Assembly (NCBI RefSeq): GCF_017743975.1
Contig: NZ_JAGHRC010000004.1
Location: 186,001-250,000 of the forward strand
DNA length: 64,000 nucleotides
Origin: Ruegeria sp. R14_0
GTDB taxonomy: Bacteria; Pseudomonadota; Alphaproteobacteria; Rhodobacterales; Rhodobacteraceae
Direction: 5' to 3'
In this document: one piece after another, positions 27,894 through 38,174 of the stretch
Numbering within the stretch: position 1 is the first letter of the stretch
Layout of the letters: every line of letters starts with the position of its first letter
Translations under genes and position numbers: made by a program
Notes under the pieces: generated by a model
What the model was told of the DNA's origin: nothing
The model's database searches: none
What the model saw: the letters and a program-made list of their open reading frames with translations, nothing else

Positions 27894-28811
27894 TTAGATA
27901 GGTCTGGCTTCGCGCGGATCGGGCGCGGGAACTGGATCGGAAGGCTCGGCGATCTGGTCGTCGAACCGGTGAGTAAATCTGAAGACGTCAACAGCGCAGA
28001 CGTCGATGCAACGCCCACATGTGGTGCAGTCGGGGGACAGGATCAGGGGCGTTGATCCCGATTTGCCTTTCAGTGCGGGCGAGATGACCTGATTTTCGGG
28101 GCAAACTGCATAGCAATCCATGCAGTCATCGCAGGCCGCACGGTTTGCGGCGCTGACCCTCAGCAGGCCCTTTGCACCAATCAGCCCATAGAAGGCGCCG
28201 ACCGGGCAGATGTGACCGCACCAACCGTGGCGGGCCACAAAAACATCGAAGACAAAGATCGCCACAATCATGGCCCATACGAACCCTGCGCCGAAGATCA
28301 GACCGCGGTGTAACATGGTGATCGGGTTAACCAATTCCCACGCAATCACGCCCGTCGCGCCCGAGACGATCAGCACAGTGGCCAATATCCAAAGGCGCGT
28401 GCCGCGCTTGGGTTGCCAACCCTTCGGCAGGTCAAGTCGTCTGTGAAGCCAGTTGGCCGCATCGGTGACCGGGTTGATTGGGCAGACCCACGAGCAATAG
28501 ATGCGCCCACCGATCAGAGCGTATGCGACCAGAACGATCAATCCACCGATCAGCGCGGTCATCTCGGGCCAGTGCCCAGCTACCACGCTTTGCAGCAGGA
28601 TCAGCGGGTCCGTTAGTGGCAATACGCCCAGTGTCAGAGACCCGGCAAGAGTGCCCTGAACGATCCAAACTCCGAACCACGGCCCCATCAGGAACAGGAC
28701 AAGAAAGCAAACCTGGCTTGCTCGACGCAACAACAGGTATTTGTGGGCGCGCACCCAGCCTTTCTCGTCGATAGCCTCTTGACCGACCGGGATTTGTGTG
28801 CGGGCGCTCAT
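27894..28811 (-). CDS. napH: NapH membrane ferredoxin-type quinol dehydrogenase subunit
   Basis: 305 residues with four or more membrane segments, a cytoplasmic CxxxCP motif region ([13 protein letters not shown], and [10 protein letters not shown]) typical of NapH, and two 4Fe-4S clusters near the C-terminus ([12 protein letters not shown] and [11 protein letters not shown]). With NapG it forms an alternative route of electrons from quinol to NapB. Start overlaps the napG stop by four bases. Confidence 0.95.
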
Positions 28812-29626
28812 TGTCCGGCCCCCGGCAAATTATAAGTGGGCGCGAAGCCGCCGGGTGTGGTCAGGTTGTCTGTGCCTGGTCCGGGCAGGCGGTCGGGCAA
28901 GTCGATGATACCTTCGACGAGGGGGCCGCCTTTGGCCTCTTTCTCTTCCCAGCCCCTGCGGTAGTGATCGGCGCTGCTACCCCGCGCCAGACGGGCAGGC
29001 AGAACCTTGATGGCCGCCTCGGGCAAGACACAGCTTTTCTCGCACATGCCGCAGCCCGTGCAGCGATCGGCGTGAACGGTCGGGATGAACATCGCATGAT
29101 GGCCCGAGCGTTCGTTGTGGGCCGTTTCCAGCGTAATCGCCTCGTCAATCACCGGGCAAACCCGGTAACAGACGTCGCAGCGCAGCCCGAGGAAGTTCAG
29201 GCAGTTTTCCTGATCGACCAGAACAGCGACACCCATCTTGGCGTCGTCAATATCATCGAGATCTGGATCAAGCGCGCCAGTAGGGCATGCGGCCACGCAA
29301 GGGATGTCGTCACACATTTCGCACGGCACGTCGCGCGCGGTGAAATAGGGTGTTCCGGTTGCCACCGCATCCGACCCCAATTCTGCCAGTTTCAGCGTGT
29401 CGTAGGGACAGTCCCGAACGCACAGCCCGCAGCGGATGCATGCCGATAGAAACTCCTTTTCGGGTAGTGCGCCGGGGGGGCGCAATGCCTCGGCCGGCAA
29501 TGCGCGGGCGTCGCGGGCAAGCCAGGCCAGCAATGACCCGGCGACCACGCAGCCACCCGTCGCCCGCGCCGCATCCTGCAGGAAGCGACGCCTTTGCGGC
29601 GAAAGGGGTTTACCTTCGAAGGGCAT
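28808..29626 (-). CDS. napG: NapG ferredoxin-type electron carrier
   Basis: 272 residues with four cysteine clusters ([26 protein letters not shown], a CDVCYRVCP region, [11 protein letters not shown]). The N-terminal RRRFLQ with a following hydrophobic stretch is a Tat signal, so the protein is periplasmic. Works with NapH. The start is 27 bases after the napA stop. Confidence 0.94.
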
Positions 29627-29653
29627 GGGGACGACCTTTGCCTCGCTAGTCCG

Positions 29654-32146
29654 TTACGCGCGCTCGACCTTGCAGGCGCATTTCTTGTAGTCGGTCTCTT
29701 TCGACAACGGGCAGGTTGCGTCCAGCGTCAGCTTGTTGGTCAACTGGTGCTCGTCGAACCAAGGCATAAAGACCAACCCGCGCGGTACCTTGTTGCGACC
29801 GCGGGTCTCGACCCGGCTGGTAACCTCGCCCCGGCGGGTGGACAGAACGATCTCCTGCCCGCGGCGCAAACCGCGATCCTTTGCGTCCTCTGGATGCATG
29901 TAGACGACAGCGGACGGATAAGCGCGGTGCAGTTCCGGAACGCGGCGTGTCATCGAGCCAGAATGCCAGTGCTCGAGCACGCGACCAGTGGACAGCCACA
30001 GATCGTACTCGTCATCCGGAACCTCAGCAGCTGGTTCATAAGGCGCAAAGATGATCTTGGCCTTGCCGTCTTTGTGGCCGTAGAACTTCACGCCCGCGCC
30101 TTCGGGCACGTAAGGATCGAAGCCTTCGCGGAAACGATAGAGCGTTTCTTTGCCGTCGACGACCGGCCAGCGCATGCCGCGGGCTTCGTGGTACATCTCG
30201 AACGGGGCCAGATCGTGTGCGTGGCCGCGACCGAAATCGGCGTATTCTTCGAACAGCCCTTTCTGCACATAGAAGCCGAAGTGTTCGGCATCGTCGTTAT
30301 GGAACCCTTCTGCCGTTTCGGACAGCGGGAACTGATCGACCTTGCCGTTGGCATAAAGCACGTCGAACATTGTCTTACCACGGTGCTCGGGCATTTTGGC
30401 CAGCAGTTCCTCGCCCCAGACCTCTTCGACGGTGAAGCGCTTGGAAAACTCCATCAATTGCCACAGGTCGGATTTTGCTTCACCCGGTGCCTGTACCTGC
30501 TGCCGCCAGAATTGAGTGCGGCGTTCTGCGTTGCCGTAGGCACCTTCCTTTTCAACCCACATGGCGGTGGGCAGGATCAGGTCCGCGGAGACGGCGGTGA
30601 CCGTCGGGTAAGGGTCGGACACGGTGATGAAGTTGTCCGGGTTGCGATAGCCGGGATAGCCTTCTTCGTTGATATTGGGCGCGGCCTGCATGTTGTTGTT
30701 GCATTGCACCCAGTAAGCGTTCAGGTCGCCATCCTTCAACTTGCGGTGCTGTAGCACGGCGTGGAAGCCGGGCTTGGGCGGAATGGTGCCCTCGGGGATG
30801 TTCCATGCGGTTTCGCAAATCTTGCGGTGCTCATCATTGGCCACGACCATGTCAGCAGGCAGGCGGTGGGCAAAGGTGCCAACCTCACGCGCGGTGCCGC
30901 AGGCCGAGGGCTGGCCGGTCAGCGAGAAGGGCGAGTTGCCGGGTTCGGAGATTTTACCAACCAGAAGGTGCACGTTGTACATCAGCGAATTCACCCACGA
31001 TCCACGGGTGTGCTGGTTGAAACCCATCGTCCAAAGGCTCATGACCTTGCGGGTCGGGTCGGCATATTGTTGCGCGAGTTTCTCGAGCTTTTCAGCCGGA
31101 ACACCGGACAGTTCCGAAGTATACTCCAGCGTGTAGGGCGCAACCGCTTCGGCGTATTCCTCAAAGCTGATTGTTTCGAGTTTACCTGAGTCCGGGTTCT
31201 CGGCCTCTTGTTGCAATGGGTTGGTCTCACGCAGGCCATAGCCGATGTCGGTCGCGGTCTTTGTGATGTTCACGTGGTTGCGGACGAAGTATTCGTTCAC
31301 CGCGTTGTTTTGGATAATGTAATTGGCGATGTAGTTCAGGATCGCCAGATCGGTCTGCGGTTCAAACACGATACCATTGTCGGCCAGTTCGAAGGAGCGG
31401 TGTTCAAAGGTCGACAGAACGTGCACCTCACAACCCGGCTTTGTCAGGCGCGTATCGGTCAGGCGCGACCACAGGATCGGGTGCATTTCGGCCATGTTCG
31501 AGCCCCACAGCACAAAGGTGTCCGCGTGCTCGAGGTCGTCATAACAGCCCATCGGCTCATCAATGCCAAAGGTGCGCATAAAGCCCACCACGGCCGAGGC
31601 CATGCAGTGGCGCGCGTTGGGGTCAATGTTGTTCGATCGGAAACCTGCCTTCATCAACTTGGAGGCAGCGTAGCCTTCCCAGACGGTCCACTGACCGGAC
31701 CCGAACATGCCGACGCTGGTCGGACCTTTCTTGGCCAGAGCCTCTTTCCACTTGGCGGCCATGATATCAAAAGCCTCGTCCCAGCTGACGGGCTCGAACT
31801 CGCCATTCTTGTCGTATTCGCCATTGGTTTTGCGCAGCAAAGGTGTCGTCAGGCGGTCCTTGCCATACATGATTTTGGACAGGAAATAGCCCTTGATGCA
31901 GTTCAGGCCCCGGTTCACAGGCGCATCAGGGTCGCCTTGAGTTGCGACAACGCGACCATCTTTTGTGCCAACAAGAACGGAACAACCAGTGCCACAGAAA
32001 CGGCACGCGGCCTTGTCCCAGCGGATATCTGGCACACCAACCTGGGCACTGGCCTGACCAGCCGCAAGCGGGATGCCGGCAGCTGACGCCGTTGCTGCGG
32101 CTGCTGAGGCCTTTAGAAAAGTCCGACGAGATTCAGAATGTGTCAT
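29654..32146 (-). CDS. napA: Periplasmic nitrate reductase catalytic subunit NapA
   Basis: 830 residues, full length. A Tat signal (SRRTFLK, cleaved near QASAQ), 4Fe-4S ligands Cys48, Cys51, Cys55 and Cys83, and the molybdenum-ligating cysteine probably Cys181 (NARHCMASA). It reduces nitrate to nitrite with a bis-MGD molybdenum centre. The start overlaps napD by ATGA. No decay is visible. In an aerobic marine host it can serve redox balancing as well as anaerobic respiration. Confidence 0.97.
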
Positions 32147-32436
32147 TGCTTGGGCCTCCGGCTGGTGGTTGGGCTTGGGGCATCGGGCTGCGGATCGGCA
32201 TCCGCGAGATCCTCGAAATGATGATAGGTAAGAGTCAGTGAGATCACGCCCGGAATTTGGTGCAGTTCCATGATGGTTTCGGACGCAAGTCGGGTAGGGG
32301 TGTCCTCGACAACGACAACGAAACGCCCATCTTCCGTTTCGGCGTGTATCTCGACACCTTGTGTATCGTTCATCGCGCGCGCTGCGGCGCTGGCGTGGTC
32401 AGGGGCGACATGGGCAAGGCAACCGCAGATGTTCAT
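32143..32436 (-). CDS. napD: NapD chaperone for the NapA Tat signal
   Basis: 97 residues, with the family's [17 protein letters not shown] start and the [12 protein letters not shown] segment. It binds the NapA twin-arginine signal before export. Overlaps the start of napA and the end of napF by ATGA. Confidence 0.92.
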
Positions 32437-32948
32437 TGAAGGGCTTCCATTTGAGCTTCGGGTTGACGTTCAAGGGCAATTGCGTCGGCAGGGCACAGGC
32501 CTGGGCAAATCCCGCACCCGTTGCACAGGGCGGCGTCCAGCCTGGGTTCTGCGCGCCCCCCGGTCAGCAGTGTGAATCGGATCGCGTTTTGTTCGCAGTT
32601 GTCCTGGCAAATGCGGCAGCTTACCCCGTTCATGGACAGACAACTCTCGGGCTTCAGCGCAGCCCGCCACGGCCAGTCAGACAGGCGGTCGATGTTTAGT
32701 GCATCCGTTGGGCAGGTCTGCGCGCAATCTCCGCAGAATGTGCAGGGGTCATCGGTGGGTTGAAATCGGGGGAAGCCATCAGCACCAATGGCGATTACAT
32801 CTTCGGGGCAAACCTCTGCGCAGTCACCGCATCTTGTACACAACTGGGGAAAGCTATGATCAATCGCACCCGGAGGTCTGGCAATTGGACCAGCCTCTTG
32901 TCGAATCCTAGCGCTTAGAAACGCGCGTCGGCTGGTCATTTGTTGCAT
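32433..32948 (-). CDS. napF: NapF ferredoxin-type protein
   Basis: 171 residues with several 4Fe-4S motifs (CTRCGDCAEVCP, CTFCGDCAQTCP, CNGCGICPGLCP). It is thought to assist cytoplasmic maturation of NapA. The first gene of the operon; the ATG at 32939 is an alternative start with no clearly better ribosome site. No napE gene was seen upstream. Confidence 0.93.
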   Translation of the reverse strand: MQQMTSRRAFLSARIRQEAGPIARPPGAIDHSFPQLCTRCGDCAEVCPEDVIAIGADGFPRFQPTDDPCTFCGDCAQTCPTDALNIDRLSDWPWRAALKPESCLSMNGVSCRICQDNCEQNAIRFTLLTGGRAEPRLDAALCNGCGICPGLCPADAIALERQPEAQMEALQ

Positions 32949-33095: not shown

Positions 33096-34109
33096 TCAAC
33101 GACGCGGCCGCGCGGTTCGGATCAAAAGGATAAATACAAAAACGGACCCCAGCGATGTGGTCACGATCCCGACCGGCAGCTCCTGCGGCGCAAGTAGAAG
33201 GCGGCTCAGAATATCAGAGCCGGTCAGCAATGCGGCACCGACCACGGCAGCAGTTGGGACAAGCTGACGGTGTAGCGGGCCGGCAATCCCTCGTGCGATA
33301 TGGGGGACCATCAACCCAACAAATCCAATGACCCCGGCAACCGAGACAAAGACCGCTGTCGCAAGCGCCGCCACGAAGAACATTCGAAACCGCAGGCCCT
33401 GTACCGGCACACCAAGGGTGCTGGCTGTCAGATCTCCGGTCAGCAGGGCGTCCAGCCACCGGCTGCGGTACATGGCGTAGGCCAGGATCAATGCCAGACC
33501 GGCGATGACCAAGGGGAAGGTTTCCCACCGGGCAAGGCCCAGACCGCCCAGCATCCAAAAGATCACCGAATGCGCAGCACGGCTGTCGCCCGCGAAAATG
33601 AGGTAGTTGGTGATCGCAGAAAACAAAAACGACACCGCCAGCCCGGCCAGGATCAGTTTTTCAGGCGCGCTGGTGCGCAGTCCATGAACAAGTGCCAACA
33701 CAATCCCCGAGGCGACAAGACCGCCGCAAAACGCAGCAAGGGGGAGGGTCCAAAAGCCCAGCACATCCCCAGTTACCGTAATTACAAAAACAGCACCCGC
33801 CGCTGCGCCAGAGGACAGGCCGAACAGAAAGGGGTCAGCCAGATCGTTGCGCGTCGTCGTTTGCAAGACCACACCGACGATCCCCAATCCCGCACCAATC
33901 ACGGCGGCGAACAACGCGCGCGGCAGGCGCAGGTCAAACACGATTCGGTGGAGTGGGGACATCTCTCCGTCAACCAAACCGGTTCCAAGCAGGACACCGG
34001 TCAGCGCATCCGCGGCAGGGATTGAGGTGGTTCCGTAGACAGTCGAAATCAGCAAGAGGGCGGCCAAAACAGCCGCCCCCAGCAAAAGTGTCAGGCCCAG
34101 TCGGCCCAT
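33096..34109 (-). CDS. FecCD-type ABC transporter permease (cobalamin/corrinoid uptake, inferred)
   Basis: 337 residues with about ten membrane segments and the FecCD/BtuC hallmarks (LPRALFAAVIGAGLGIVGVVLQTTTRNDLADPFLFGLSSGAA near residue 58 and GLMVPHIAR near 268). Last gene of the riboswitch-controlled operon; it starts two bases after the binding-protein stop. The cobalamin riboswitch upstream makes a corrinoid the probable cargo, rather than a ferric siderophore as the family name suggests. Confidence 0.85.
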   Translation of the reverse strand: MGRLGLTLLLGAAVLAALLLISTVYGTTSIPAADALTGVLLGTGLVDGEMSPLHRIVFDLRLPRALFAAVIGAGLGIVGVVLQTTTRNDLADPFLFGLSSGAAAGAVFVITVTGDVLGFWTLPLAAFCGGLVASGIVLALVHGLRTSAPEKLILAGLAVSFLFSAITNYLIFAGDSRAAHSVIFWMLGGLGLARWETFPLVIAGLALILAYAMYRSRWLDALLTGDLTASTLGVPVQGLRFRMFFVAALATAVFVSVAGVIGFVGLMVPHIARGIAGPLHRQLVPTAAVVGAALLTGSDILSRLLLAPQELPVGIVTTSLGSVFVFILLIRTARPRR

Positions 34110-34110
34110 A

Positions 34111-35061
34111 TCAGTTCAGGCCCGGGTGCATGGCCTCGGCCATTTTCGCAATCGCTTCGATGTTTGCCGGTCCGGGGGTCAGCTCCTCATAGCGCAGACC
34201 GATCCAGCGTTCGTTTTTGACCGCGTCTGTCTGAGACATCACCGGATGTTCTTGCAGGAACTTGAACGTGTCCGCGGCTCCGTTGCCGGTCTGGTAGTCC
34301 AGAAGAACAAGGAATTCGGGGTTCGAGGCGGCGACGGCCTCCCACGAGGTGCGGCCCCAGCTGGTATCCATGTCGTGGGTGACGTTCTCACCACCTGCGG
34401 CTGCGATCATTGCGTCAGGGATGGCAAATTTGCCAGCGGTAAACGGCGCGTCGGCAGGGCCATCCAACAGGAAAACGCGCGGTTTCGCCAGATCGGCAGT
34501 CTTTGCCTCGATGGCCGCCAATTGTTCTTTCCAGCCGTCGACCAGCGCGTTGGCCTTATCTTCGACATGCATCACCGTGCCCAGACGCAGGACGTCATTG
34601 AACAACAGGTCCATGCTGGCCTCGGGGCGGTTTTTGTCCAGATGAACGCAGCTTTCGGTCAGGATCATCGTCTTGATGCCAAACGGCTCAAGCGTGTCCG
34701 GGGTCACATCGCCGCCGGGCTTCATGCCATAGTACCAACCGGCAAAGAACAGGTCAGGCTCGACCGCGACCAGATTTTCCACGGTCGGGTATTTCGGGGC
34801 CAGCTCGGGGATGTCACCGCGCAGCGTATCGAATTCTGGGCTGGTCTTGTACCAACCGGTGATGCCGGTGAGGCCGACGATATTGTCCTGCAGACCCAGC
34901 GCAAAAGCCATGTCGGTCATGTTCATGTCGTGGACGACCAGCCGCTCGGGCTGTGTTTCAAAGACCAGGGGTTCACCGCAATTGTCGACAGTGATCTCGT
35001 GCGCCGTCGCAGTGGTGGCCAAGCCGCCAATCAGGGCTGCGTACCAAAATGTGTTTTTCAT
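34111..35061 (-). CDS. ABC transporter periplasmic binding protein, FepB/BtuF-type (corrinoid, inferred)
   Basis: 316 residues. Signal peptide about residues 1-20 (ending TATAHE) and two lobes joined by a long helix, class III periplasmic-binding fold with VVHDMNMTDMAFALGL near residue 42. The ligand is inferred from the riboswitch to be cobalamin or a corrinoid; homologous proteins bind ferric chelates and cobalamin alike. It lies 10 bases after the ATPase stop. Confidence 0.85.
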   Translation of the reverse strand: MKNTFWYAALIGGLATTATAHEITVDNCGEPLVFETQPERLVVHDMNMTDMAFALGLQDNIVGLTGITGWYKTSPEFDTLRGDIPELAPKYPTVENLVAVEPDLFFAGWYYGMKPGGDVTPDTLEPFGIKTMILTESCVHLDKNRPEASMDLLFNDVLRLGTVMHVEDKANALVDGWKEQLAAIEAKTADLAKPRVFLLDGPADAPFTAGKFAIPDAMIAAAGGENVTHDMDTSWGRTSWEAVAASNPEFLVLLDYQTGNGAADTFKFLQEHPVMSQTDAVKNERWIGLRYEELTPGPANIEAIAKMAEAMHPGLN

Positions 35062-35071
35062 GCTCGGTTCC

Positions 35072-35848
35072 TTAATTTGAGCGTTTGGTTCTTCGGATAT
35101 CCAGCGCCGGGATCACGCGGCCTTCGTGTTGAAAGCACAGGTAGTCGACACCAAAAGTTTCACGGACCCGTTCTGGGGTCAGAACGTCGGGCACCAGTCC
35201 AAATCCGGTCAGGTGCGCGGATTTCATCAAGGCGACATGAGTGGCGAATTCCGGGATCATGACCAGATCGTGGACGATCATGACCACCGTGATGCCAAGC
35301 TCAGCCACCAGCGACAGCATCCGGCCTTTGGCGTCCGGGTCGAGGTGGTTGGTGGGCTCGTCCAGAAAAAGCAGGGACGGGTTCTGCGCCAGTGCCCGCG
35401 CAATATGCGCGCGCTGGCGTTCGCCGCCTGACAGCACGCCCATTCGCTTGTCTTCCAGGGTGCTCAGGCCGGTCAGTTGCAGAATGCGGTCCAGTTCTGC
35501 GGCATGCTCATTGGCAGATCGATCTGCTCGGATCGGAATTTGACCCAGCGCCACATAGTCCCGCAGGAACAAGCGTCCGTCAGGCGTTTCCTGCTGACCA
35601 ACGACTGCAATCATGCGCGCGCGATCCACGGCAGATAGTTGCCTCAGACTGCGCCCTTTCAAAAGGACGTCGCCCAGCACGATCTCTTCGATCCCACACA
35701 GCAGATTGAGCAATGTCGTTTTGCCCGCCCCGTTTGGACCGGCAATCGCCAGGATCGCGCCCTCTTCCAGATCGAAATTGATGTCTTTCAACAGGATGTC
35801 GCCGTTCAGCGCGTAGTATTCCAGCCCGTGCGCTTCAAGGAAAGTCAT
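35072..35848 (-). CDS. ABC transporter ATP-binding protein, FepC/BtuD-type (corrinoid, inferred)
   Basis: 258 residues. Walker A is GPNGAGKTT near residue 38, signature LSGGERQRA, Walker B LLFLDEPTNHLD. The start overlaps the DUF1636 gene by ATGA. This energises the permease encoded at 33096. The specificity is inferred from the cobalamin riboswitch. Confidence 0.9.
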   Translation of the reverse strand: MTFLEAHGLEYYALNGDILLKDINFDLEEGAILAIAGPNGAGKTTLLNLLCGIEEIVLGDVLLKGRSLRQLSAVDRARMIAVVGQQETPDGRLFLRDYVALGQIPIRADRSANEHAAELDRILQLTGLSTLEDKRMGVLSGGERQRAHIARALAQNPSLLFLDEPTNHLDPDAKGRMLSLVAELGITVVMIVHDLVMIPEFATHVALMKSAHLTGFGLVPDVLTPERVRETFGVDYLCFQHEGRVIPALDIRRTKRSN

Positions 35849-36201
35849 AGGCTGTCCTCCTGCGGGATCCGCGGTAGTCGTGCGAGCGTTTTGTCGTACA
35901 ACGCGCGCGGTCGTTGGGTCGCGTTTGTCCAGCCATCTTCGGTGTCGCGGTACTGGCCGGCAAATTCAACCAAAGCCTCCACGTCCTGGTCTGACAGGAT
36001 GTCACCGAACAGGTATTGCGCTTTGCCTTCTGCCTGAAAGCCAACAGTCGTGGGCCGTTCGCAGCCTGCCATGCAGTTCACCCTGCGAATTTCAAAGTCA
36101 GCAGGTAGCTTCTGCGCAAGCGCTTGGTGCATTGCTTCTGCACGAATATCACCTTCGCAGGTTTCACAGATAAGTAGAAAATGATCGGGTTTAATTTGCA
36201 T
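35845..36201 (-). CDS. DUF1636 protein, ferredoxin-like (thioredoxin-fold [2Fe-2S] type)
   Basis: 118 residues. Four cysteines in the order C-x2-C (CETC near residue 12) and C-x3-C (CMAGC near 43) match the [2Fe-2S] thioredoxin-like ferredoxin arrangement. The DUF1636 family is common beside cobalamin genes. The start codon lies inside a stem-loop with the upstream leader ORF. The role may be electron transfer for corrinoid reduction, but it has not been shown. Confidence 0.82.
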   Translation of the reverse strand: MQIKPDHFLLICETCEGDIRAEAMHQALAQKLPADFEIRRVNCMAGCERPTTVGFQAEGKAQYLFGDILSDQDVEALVEFAGQYRDTEDGWTNATQRPRALYDKTLARLPRIPQEDSL

Positions 36202-36239
36202 TTCTCGCTCCGCTTACCGCCGAGTCGAGCGAAATGCAA
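36196..36239 (-). promoter_or_regulatory. Stem-loop covering the DUF1636 start codon
   Basis: On the minus strand, 9+4 base arms (TTGCATTTC/GAAATGCAA and GCTC/GAGC, with a two-base bulge and a 16-base loop) enclose the leader ORF's stop in the loop and the DUF1636 ATG in the 3' arm. Part of the DUF1636 ribosome site (GGAGCGAG) lies in the stem. Translation of the leader would pass through the 5' arm and open the structure. Confidence 0.6.
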
Positions 36240-36264
36240 TGTTATAACGTCTCAGACGTTTCAT
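36214..36264 (-). CDS. 16-residue leader peptide between cobalamin riboswitch and DUF1636 gene
   Basis: ATG to TAA encoding MKRLRRYNIAFRSTRR, with a strong ribosome site (GGAAGGAGG) 4-5 bases before the ATG, stronger than that of the following gene. Just after its start is a 7-base inverted repeat (AACGTCT-AGACGTT, one base apart). Its stop lies in the loop of the stem that hides the DUF1636 start. Basic, not membrane-like, so it is probably a translational switch and not a functional protein. Confidence 0.6.
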   Translation of the reverse strand: MKRLRRYNIAFRSTRR

Positions 36265-36310
36265 ATCGCCTCCTTCCAGGACGCCCCGCCCTGGGTTGGT
36301 TGAACACTTG

Positions 36311-36486
36311 ATGGCAGGTCTCCTGACTTGCGGGTCATGGCTTGGCCAACCTTCCCGGCCCTTTTGGCCAGTGGATATTTTGGCGTCGCTTACCGCTTAC
36401 AGTTGCGGGGGCAGTCACGGACTTGGCGCCTGTCGGCAACCTCACCGTATTCCCTTTTCATCCCTTGGCGAACCAGAGGGAACCAT
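36311..36486 (-). promoter_or_regulatory. Cobalamin (B12) riboswitch
   Basis: On the minus strand the B12 box AGTCAGGAGACCTGCCAT lies at 36328-36311. Upstream are GATGAAAAGGGAATACGGTG (the conserved P3-side core near 36458), the GCCCCCGCAACTGTAAGCGG segment near 36410, and the 5' part of P1 near 36484. The order and spacing of conserved elements fit the AdoCbl/cobalamin riboswitch, and the downstream operon is an ABC importer of the BtuCDF type, so adenosylcobalamin or cobalamin would repress its expression. Confidence 0.92.
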
Positions 36487-36779
36487 CGTGGATGATGAGT
36501 GCCTGAGTTCAGAATTTGGGTCAAGAATAAACCTGCGTGCGCCAGGACACGCCTGCGCGATGCGGTCTGCCGCATCAGTGTCACAGACCTCTGCTAGGCC
36601 ATGTGACGCGGTATCACAGGCGTGGTTGTATCGGGGCTAACCAATTGTCATTCGCAAAGAACTTGAATACGCTGCAGCGCAGAAAAGCTGGAAGTCGAGG
36701 AAAGTGATCAACACGATCCAGGGCCAGAGACCTGGCCACGAGCATTGACATCATCATTCAAAAACCAAAGCCAAACATC

Positions 36780-38174
36780 ATGAAGATTGAAGAAAACCGA
36801 ACATATTCGCAGGTCAAAGTCGGCGACACGGCGCAGGTTACTCGTTTGTGCACGGTGGATGATCTGTACGCCTTTGCCTCGGCCTCGGGGGATCACAATC
36901 CGTTGCATTTGGCGGTCTATGACGGTGACGGTGACGGCCGCCCTGAGGCCGTAGCACCCGCCCTTTGGCCTGCCGGTCTGGTCGCTGCAGTGATTGGAAA
37001 CATCCTGCCGGGCGCGGGGACGCAAACGCGCCGCGCAGACCTAAGCTTTCACGCGCCGGTTCTTGCGGGCGAGGAACTGACAGCCTTTGTTTCGGTACTG
37101 GACAAGCGTGAAGACGGTGATGTGACCTTGTCAGCCGAAGTGCGTCGGATCGGGGATGATGCATTGATCCTGAGTGGGACGGTTCAGGTCACTCCGCCCA
37201 CCCAGCATTTGACCTTCGACTCGGTCGAAGTGCCGGGACTCATCGTGCAAAGGCACCAGCATTTCGATGCCCTTCTGGAAAAAGCGCGGCCATTGGATCC
37301 GATGCCGACCGCCGTCGTTGCACCGGAAGAGCCGAACTCGCTGGGTGGGGCATTGCTGGCGCAGGCCAACAGCATCATTACGCCGATACTGGTGGGCGAC
37401 CCTGCCAAGATCACCGCTGCCGCGGTCGAGCTTGGTGCAGACCTTTCCGGGGTAGAAATCGTTGCCGCGCAAAGCCACGATGTGGCCGCCCATATCGCCG
37501 TCGATTTGGTGGTTGAAGGAAAGGCCCGGATGCTGATGAAAGGGCATTTGCATACGGATGTCCTATTGCGCGCTGCGCTTCGCCGGGAAAAGGGGCTCAG
37601 AACCGGGCGGCGTCTGTCGCATGTGTTTGTCATGGACGTTCCGGGCATGTCACGGCCGATCATGGTCACCGATGCTGCCGTGAATATCGCACCCGACCTT
37701 GAGACCAAAGCCGACATTGTTCAAAACGCAATCCATCTGGCGCACTCGATTGGTATCGGTCTGCCCAAGGTGGGCGTCCTGTCGGCGGTTGAAACGATCA
37801 ACCCACATATGCCCTCATCCGTGGATGCCGCTTTACTGTCAAAAATGGCGGAACGCGGTCAGATCACCGGCGGGATCGTTGACGGGCCGCTGGCCATGGA
37901 CAACGCCGTCGACCTGAATGCGGCGCGGACCAAGGGCATCACATCCGAGGTCGCCGGTGTCGCAGATATCCTGGTGGTTCCGAATATCGAGGCGGGTAAT
38001 ATGGTTGCCAAGCAACTGACCTATATTTCGCATGCCGAAGCTGCTGGTGTCGTTGTTGGCGCGGCTGCACCTATCATCCTGACCTCGCGCGCGGATGATG
38101 ACGCATCAAGGCTGGCCTCTTGTGCGGTCGCGGCACTCCATGCACTGGAAAACAAGGATGAATTCCGTGGCTGA
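36780..38174 (+). CDS. MaoC-type hydratase domain fused to phosphate acetyl/butyryltransferase
   Basis: 464 residues. Residues 1-140 form a MaoC-like hot-dog fold with the catalytic ASGDHNPLH motif near residue 39, as in (R)-specific enoyl-CoA hydratases. From about 165 comes the PTA/PTB domain (LANS..PILVGDP, ending GVVVGAAAPIILTSRADDDASR). Exchange of acyl-CoA with phosphate gives an acyl-phosphate, which the next gene, an acetate kinase, turns into ATP and the acid. The next gene overlaps this one. Confidence 0.9.
   Translation: MKIEENRTYSQVKVGDTAQVTRLCTVDDLYAFASASGDHNPLHLAVYDGDGDGRPEAVAPALWPAGLVAAVIGNILPGAGTQTRRADLSFHAPVLAGEELTAFVSVLDKREDGDVTLSAEVRRIGDDALILSGTVQVTPPTQHLTFDSVEVPGLIVQRHQHFDALLEKARPLDPMPTAVVAPEEPNSLGGALLAQANSIITPILVGDPAKITAAAVELGADLSGVEIVAAQSHDVAAHIAVDLVVEGKARMLMKGHLHTDVLLRAALRREKGLRTGRRLSHVFVMDVPGMSRPIMVTDAAVNIAPDLETKADIVQNAIHLAHSIGIGLPKVGVLSAVETINPHMPSSVDAALLSKMAERGQITGGIVDGPLAMDNAVDLNAARTKGITSEVAGVADILVVPNIEAGNMVAKQLTYISHAEAAGVVVGAAAPIILTSRADDDASRLASCAVAALHALENKDEFRG

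Follow-up and report, generated by a model that had tools for sequence, protein, structure and literature searches.

Which start codon does a cobalamin riboswitch control when a short open reading frame (ORF) stands between it and the first gene of an operon? This question is raised by a DUF1636–ABC transporter operon on the minus strand of the window, the whole 64,000-nt stretch of Ruegeria sp. R14_0 DNA analysed here. A sequence-only reading of this DNA had placed a cobalamin riboswitch at 36311–36486 (minus strand), a leader ORF at 36264–36214 with a stronger ribosome site than that of the DUF1636 gene, the leader stop in the loop of a hairpin whose 3′ arm holds the DUF1636 ATG and part of its Shine-Dalgarno (SD) sequence, and a second inverted repeat after the leader start. 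We recovered each of these elements, the riboswitch being slightly wider than had been read. The features, with positions in the window, are as follows.

36296–36502, minus strand: cobalamin riboswitch aptamer RF00174 (131.5 bits, E 8e-33, full model 1-189)
36405–36412, minus strand: aptamer loop L5, GCCCCCGC, putative partner of L13 in a kissing interaction
36276–36295, minus strand: P13/L13 hairpin, CCCAGG-GCGGGGCGT-CCTGG, assigned by sequence and abutting the leader SD
36269–36275, minus strand: leader SD (SD1), AAGGAGG, 0 nt 3′ of P13
36264 (ATG) to 36214 (TAA), minus strand: leader ORF of 16 codons, MKRLRRYNIAFRSTRR
36246–36260, minus strand: H1, start-proximal hairpin, AACGTC-TGA-GACGTT
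36196–36239, minus strand: H2, 44-nt hairpin hiding the DUF1636 SD and AUG
36208–36213, minus strand: DUF1636 SD (SD2), GCGGAG, in the 3′ arm of H2
35845–36201, minus strand: DUF1636 gene, first gene of the operon (PF07845, E 9e-23)
35072–35848, minus strand: FecE/BtuD-like ABC ATPase, with a 4-nt ATGA overlap with the DUF1636 stop
34111–35061, minus strand: periplasmic binding protein (Peripla_BP_2)
33096–34109, minus strand: FecCD-family permease (BtuC-like; BtuC model match below cut-off)

The aptamer score of 131.5 bits lies above the gathering threshold of 31.5 bits. By this match the element is a cobalamin riboswitch, with corrinoid binding and an effect on expression predicted. The leader has its own SD at L13, AAGGAGG adjoining P13 as in the uORF relay class; this SD matched at 7/7 positions versus only a run of 4 in GCGGAGC of DUF1636. 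The second inverted repeat is real and corresponds to H1, which begins at base 5 of the leader ORF; a covarying hairpin occupies that place in 38 relatives. A 61-nt piece carrying H2 (36250–36190) folded at −21.1 kcal/mol against a shuffle mean of −11.5 (z −3.74), and 0 of 200 shuffles were as stable. In this fold, the H2 loop GGUAA contains the leader TAA, and pairing in the 3′ arm takes up the AUG of DUF1636 together with most of its SD. Folding of 36500–36150 (minus strand) had been suggested as a check on the sequence-only reading. The local H2 proved stable, whereas the whole 351-nt region gave a marginal z of −1.5 (5 of 100 shuffles as stable). The folding signal is therefore local, since the region as a whole barely beats its shuffles.

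The NCBIfam matches listed for the three transporter genes (for the ATPase, 25 of 191) all fell below their cut-offs, and the transporter substrate was therefore left unassigned. After the transporter operon lie genes of a periplasmic nitrate reductase (28808–32948, minus strand; NapA 1573 bits), together with a NapF-like protein slightly under its cut-off and another ferredoxin-type protein. On the other side, a divergent gene (36780–38174, plus strand) encodes a MaoC-like domain fused to a phosphate acetyl/butyryl transferase, and an acetate kinase gene follows it.

We propose that a translational-OFF cobalamin riboswitch would control the DUF1636–ABC transporter operon via a relay ORF, and we give this model as a whole a probability of roughly three in four. 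With B12 bound, L5 would kiss L13 and stabilise P13, and the abutting SD1 would be blocked; B12 binding should block the leader because SD1 abuts P13. With SD1 blocked, the leader would stay untranslated and H2 would keep the SD and AUG of DUF1636 closed. When B12 is absent, the leader would be translated, and its ribosomes would open H1 and H2 and end near the DUF1636 AUG, at +14 nt in most relatives and at −15 nt in the window. DUF1636 would then be started by the terminating ribosome or by a new 30S subunit on the opened SD2, and the ABC ATPase would be translated next via the ATGA overlap. Such a riboswitch would gate ribosome traffic instead of the gene's own start codon. The ORF, its frame, the stop position, the hairpins, and the L5–L13 complementarity, all features of the sequence, support this relay model. 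Translation of the leader, the B12 response, and the sign of that response are predicted from the same features, as is the closing of the operon through H2 when SD1 is blocked. From the conservation of stop and frame, we infer that DUF1636 depends on leader translation.

CCCCG in L5 of the window is complementary to CGGGG in L13. In L163 and L216, L5 is changed to CCUCG (CCCUC) together with a change of L13 to CGAGG; L216 and L227 are one riboswitch, and the joint change thus occurs in two riboswitches. This joint change favours the putative kissing loop. L5–L13 kissing in other corrinoid riboswitches is described as stabilising P13 and favouring the hairpin at the ribosome-binding site (RBS) (PMC10653944).

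To compare this layout among relatives, we collected DUF1636 loci. A search at E 1e-10 identified homologues in 90 of 394 family genomes, and a scan of species genomes kept 80 named loci of 172; the nearest named relative was Ruegeria arenilitoris HKCCA4777 (L102; 86% identity). From 176 scanned loci, we kept 110 distinct ones in which both a B12 box and DUF1636 could be recognised. The 66 dropped loci comprised 6 duplicates and 60 without the box or the CMAGC motif by the pattern used, the latter including L055, L173, and L179, in which a leader is visible by eye. The 110 loci were split into 53 of Ruegeria type, 27 of a second type, at least 9 direct starts, and 21 of other or undetermined kind; L021, whose SD is weaker and which has an early stop together with an ATGA restart, was placed in neither type. 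A search of 54 genus genomes, 42 of which matched, gave 30 loci; 22 of these were already included, and the eight new ones brought the Ruegeria-type leaders to 61, a class that was drawn by us, in which many rows are congeners and whose loci were found via DUF1636.

The leader stop lay between −15 and +14 nt from the next start in 59 of the 61 Ruegeria-type leaders and at exactly +14 in 48, the next start being assigned by a rule independent of the stop. Stops were judged on the 61 because the 38 leaders used for covariation were selected at exactly 28 codons, which makes stop conservation circular in them. In the commonest form, a leader of 27–28 codons crosses the hairpin and ends 14 nt within the next gene. 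A less circular form of the test, tallied by hand, took the 52 leaders in which the spacing is standard and no stop comes earlier: 49 are 27–28 codons long and end at this site, the exceptions being L146 (TAA at +11, one codon earlier), L009 (+44), and L113 (+122). Where frame or stop has changed, a stop is again found close to the start. L008 and L141 have a shifted leader frame that ends at ATGA, L138 ends at TGATG, and L205, with an Asn codon in place of Asp, has TAA as its leader stop at the same position. The 16-codon form with a stop at −15 (TAA or TAG) was seen only in the window, L102, and L114. These three lack the +14 TGA and have CCC, CCA, and CCC there, respectively; in L114, the hairpin is weaker (−11.0 kcal/mol) and the AUG lies outside it. 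The stop-in-loop leader of the window is a derived variant. The sequence-only reading had stacked B12 control and translational coupling on this layout; the idea is well supported by the stop position, the frame, and the hairpins that covary in relatives at the leader start and at the DUF1636 SD, but the stop in the loop (3/61) is not general.

A stop at +14 forces NNT in the overlapping codon of the next gene, and this codon varied: nine codons for eight amino acids occurred in the 48 leaders (CCT 21, GCT 6, ACT 6, TCT 4, AGT 4, TGT 3, GTT 2, ATT 1, and CGT 1). On a quick DUF1636 tree (46 of its 59 rows labelled), the amino acid at this site changed 20 times or more, and among 23,067 flanking codons, the amino acids concerned are encoded by T-ending codons in 9–30% of cases. 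These counts bear on the possibility that the leader ORF is accidental, that is, that RNA elements alone are conserved and the open frame is a by-product. Conservation is indeed mainly at the RNA level, and where DUF1636 is not adjacent to the leader (L108, L110, L113, and L117), the site codon is GCA, TCT, GTT, and CAT; T-ending site codons are therefore not confined to coupled copies, since 3/4 uncoupled copies have them. However, an accidental ORF would not be expected to retain its +14 stop through the amino-acid changes in the overlapping codon, to acquire replacement stops near the start after a change of frame or stop, or to show spacings that mostly differ by threes, and we consider this explanation very unlikely.

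The reading frame gave a similar picture. An open frame of 22 codons was found in 44/45 Ruegeria-type leaders, compared with 13/45 and 22/45 in the other frames; this test omitted the window, L102, L114, L108, L110, L113, L117, and L146 and predates the eight genus loci. In the second type, the leader frame was open in 27/27 and the other frames in 9 and 13, and the spacing was 67, 70, 73, or 76 nt (1 mod 3) in 23/27 and 71 nt in four. The main rival of the relay model is translation at a distance, in which SD1 would recruit the 30S subunit for initiation some 70 nt further downstream, at the AUG of DUF1636, with the leader untranslated. It has a published precedent in an alphaproteobacterial riboswitch: in SAM-II metA of Sinorhizobium meliloti, the SD is needed, the start lies 74 nt downstream, the first AUG is dispensable, and the authors propose 30S recruitment without leader translation (PMC9373788). 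Our system resembles metA, as far as that account goes, in being an alphaproteobacterial riboswitch with an SD about 70 nt before the start, and differs in the ligand; the distance from the leader ATG to the next start, 70 nt in 48/61 leaders, is of the order of that in metA. Start at a distance nevertheless leaves the open leader frame, the fixed stop position, and the compensating stops unexplained, and we regard it as distinctly unlikely. Most leaders are one frame off DUF1636 without a stop in between. A programmed frameshift from the leader into DUF1636 was considered and dropped; a separate SD2 and AUG exist, and a +14 stop would be pointless.

A further possibility is that the leader is a peptide sensor whose nascent chain stalls ribosomes on B12 or another signal. 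A consensus, MARxxRVxMxGTFCPRLATSGAG, is discernible in the 38 leaders of 28 codons and speaks for such a sensor, but the window peptide lacks most of this motif. Identity at codon positions 1–3 in the 38 leaders was 0.71, 0.69, and 0.72, that is, without codon periodicity. The pN/pS over codons 2–22 was 0.90 in the leader frame and 1.03 and 0.83 in the other frames, compared with 0.48 for DUF1636 computed with the same code. Purifying selection on the leader peptide was thus not found by pN/pS or periodicity, and a stalling peptide is highly improbable. We propose no functional peptide because the codon positions are equally conserved and pN/pS is 0.90. Since the stop is kept despite codon changes, the hairpins covary, and the peptide is unconserved, the act and the end point of leader translation appear to be under selection, and the peptide does not.

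Covariation was examined in the alignment of the 38 leaders of exactly 28 codons. RNAalifold, unaided, predicted P13, H1 at the leader start, and H2 before the DUF1636 SD, and, in addition, a short helix between the tail of SD1 and the SD2 region. In H1 and upper H2, 86.8% of cells were paired versus 19–56% with partners slid, and both-side changes occurred in 24 cells versus 8.9 in shuffled alignments, a value reached by 0/500 of them. Counted by pairs, six H1/H2 pairs had a double change versus 4.8 in shuffles (135/500), which is not above chance. In lower H2, which reaches the AUG, 78.2% of cells were paired versus 36–48% with partners slid, and both-side changes in 16 cells versus 12.0 in shuffles (26/500) indicate weak covariation; 3 of its 11 pairs were unpaired in 16–19 of the 38 rows. 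The mean folding z was −1.68 for 50 Ruegeria-type stretches (35 below −1, 15 not) and −1.97 for 27 second-type stretches (19 below −1, 8 not). The SD and AUG of the next gene lie in a hairpin that is conserved and overlaps the leader, the signal being weak for the part that pairs with the AUG. When the sequence-only reading is held to conservation among relatives, the leader ORF, the near-start stop, H1, and upper H2 stand, but lower H2 does so weakly. A palindrome upstream of DUF1636 in L108, AATGTTATAACATT, present nearly in L110 and L117, was considered as an operator and set aside; no exact copy of its 13-mer AATGTTATAACAT was found in the window's own genome.

Leader translation could also act mainly by shielding RNA polymerase from Rho, as in polarity, rather than by opening H2. 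The massive drop in Mycobacterium tuberculosis metE mRNA under B12, which its authors put down to likely Rho-dependent termination (PMC11260477), speaks for such a route. On the other hand, polarity needs neither a stop beside the DUF1636 start nor a hairpin over SD2. As the main action of the leader we think it unlikely; Rho polarity and the opening of H2 are mutually compatible.

In L108, L110, L117, L202, and L205, an ORF of 29–51 codons follows the leader and DUF1636 lies further on, and the leader stop is kept; the relay would be re-pluggable onto other first ORFs in that these loci keep the stop over a different ORF. With L113 included, which does not keep the stop, the intervening ORFs are of 12–51 codons; some begin like the DUF1636 N-terminus and are perhaps a decayed duplicate. 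Leaders of the second type, which have a GGAGG-rich SD2 near the DUF1636 start, stop deep inside DUF1636 (+20 to +140), and a near-start stop is thus not universal. Because of these distant stops, coupling in the second type would need hairpin opening and not near-start termination. Nine loci of neither type have an SD and ATG after L13 (L031, L149, L152, L158, L159, L160, L162, L165, and L176), with stops at +50, −51, −17, −4, −4, +17, +131, −4, and none in the stretch read, respectively; with these nine added, 62/70 stops fall in −15 to +14.

In L013, L016, L036, L042, L044, L048, L050, L051, and L073, the SD at the riboswitch serves DUF1636 directly. Because direct-start and leader loci coexist, the SD beside the riboswitch is the constant element, and the ORF that it serves, gene or leader, varies. 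The nine direct-start loci share the riboswitch and the P13–SD layout and are natural leaderless controls. Among 40 DUF1636 loci in which no B12 box had been recognised (L098–L101 left out), L078 alone had an Rfam riboswitch, and viral contigs, scanned with DUF1636, gave no match. By eye, most of 27 other riboswitch loci had no short SD-ATG ORF 3′ of L13; these are 23 loci (two with the same site pair), taken regardless of DUF1636 adjacency, and L002–L005 of the window's own genome, which carries four B12 riboswitches besides that of the window. In L217, L219, L221, and L225, the riboswitch is followed by ORFs of 52–58 codons, perhaps small genes of the ordinary kind; L002 and L212 offer the clearest leader candidates. 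B12 riboswitches in general do not seem to share the leader layout.

Taken over these loci, we lean towards a broader reading, in which a form of the B12 riboswitch that is widespread in alphaproteobacteria would switch a "blank" relay ORF: the peptide would be free, the length, frame, and stop of the ORF and the start-proximal hairpin would be selected, and the unit could be plugged onto other first ORFs. Leaders with an intact stop were also seen beside unusual DUF1636 copies. The copy in L041 (701–1018) has an altered N-terminal Cys motif, and in L191 and L196 the ORF at the DUF1636 start is just 59 and 69 codons, respectively, with no CMAGC motif found within the stretch examined.

The sequence-only reading knew of no described case of such a layout, and this is too strong. 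In M. tuberculosis, the ppe2 B12 riboswitch masks the SD of uPPE2 in an L13-carrying hairpin, and PPE2 expression depends on translation of uPPE2, chiefly through termination-reinitiation at AUGA (PMC11260477); it is a published B12 riboswitch–uORF relay. As in uPPE2–PPE2, the switch here would be a B12 OFF switch acting by L13 at the SD of a uORF, with the dependence of the next gene inferred in our case. The junction differs: uPPE2 joins PPE2 by an AUGA overlap, whereas the leader stop lies at −15 in the window and most commonly at +14, and only L008 and L141 have the AUGA. In the published account, PPE2 lacks an SD that is obvious, and its start is not described as lying under a hairpin, whereas a hairpin covers SD2 and the AUG here. 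Unlike uPPE2 as described, the leader is mostly of fixed length, overlaps the next gene, and is common to several genera.

Opening of a hairpin by translation has precedents as well. Rhodobacter capsulatus belongs to the same bacterial order as the host of the window. In its CutF–CutO system, translation of an upstream ORF opens a stem-loop in which the SD of the following gene is hidden (PMC9973294). Hairpin opening is shared with the present system, but nascent CutF senses copper and delays the ribosome, and that account describes no riboswitch. Likewise, translation of the short ORF mgtQ of Salmonella frees the RBS of mgtB from a stem-loop (PMC8092293); freeing of the RBS is shared, whereas mgtQ–mgtB uses alternative hairpins and ribosome-destabilising codons, with no aptamer over mgtQ in the account. 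The Mbox of M. tuberculosis is a magnesium-sensing RNA with a conserved small uORF, a translational expression platform, and Rho-dependent termination (PMC12810186). It is likewise a case of a uORF controlled by an RNA element, as far as described, and differs in ligand and in the Rho-dependent termination. Among the matches listed from the open-licence PMC literature, no description of this DUF1636 leader system was found, and the riboswitch-controlled uORFs found there were from M. tuberculosis. We regard the system as a broadly conserved variation on the published riboswitch–uORF relay principle.

The dozens of natural variants, including those with moved or replaced stops, make the rules of riboswitch–uORF coupling testable in culturable marine bacteria. 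They also call for caution, as an SD and ATG after a riboswitch may not mean regulation of the annotated start codon. Blank leader ORFs could be searched for by the test applied here, a stop kept inside the overlapping gene while the overlapping codon changes. Within the window's own genome, the B12 riboswitch of L002 (C19:565660–568870) is followed by an SD and an ORF of 50–52 codons that overlaps a small ORF preceding a gene that starts MSAVLELRDLTL, and L002 may be a second relay.
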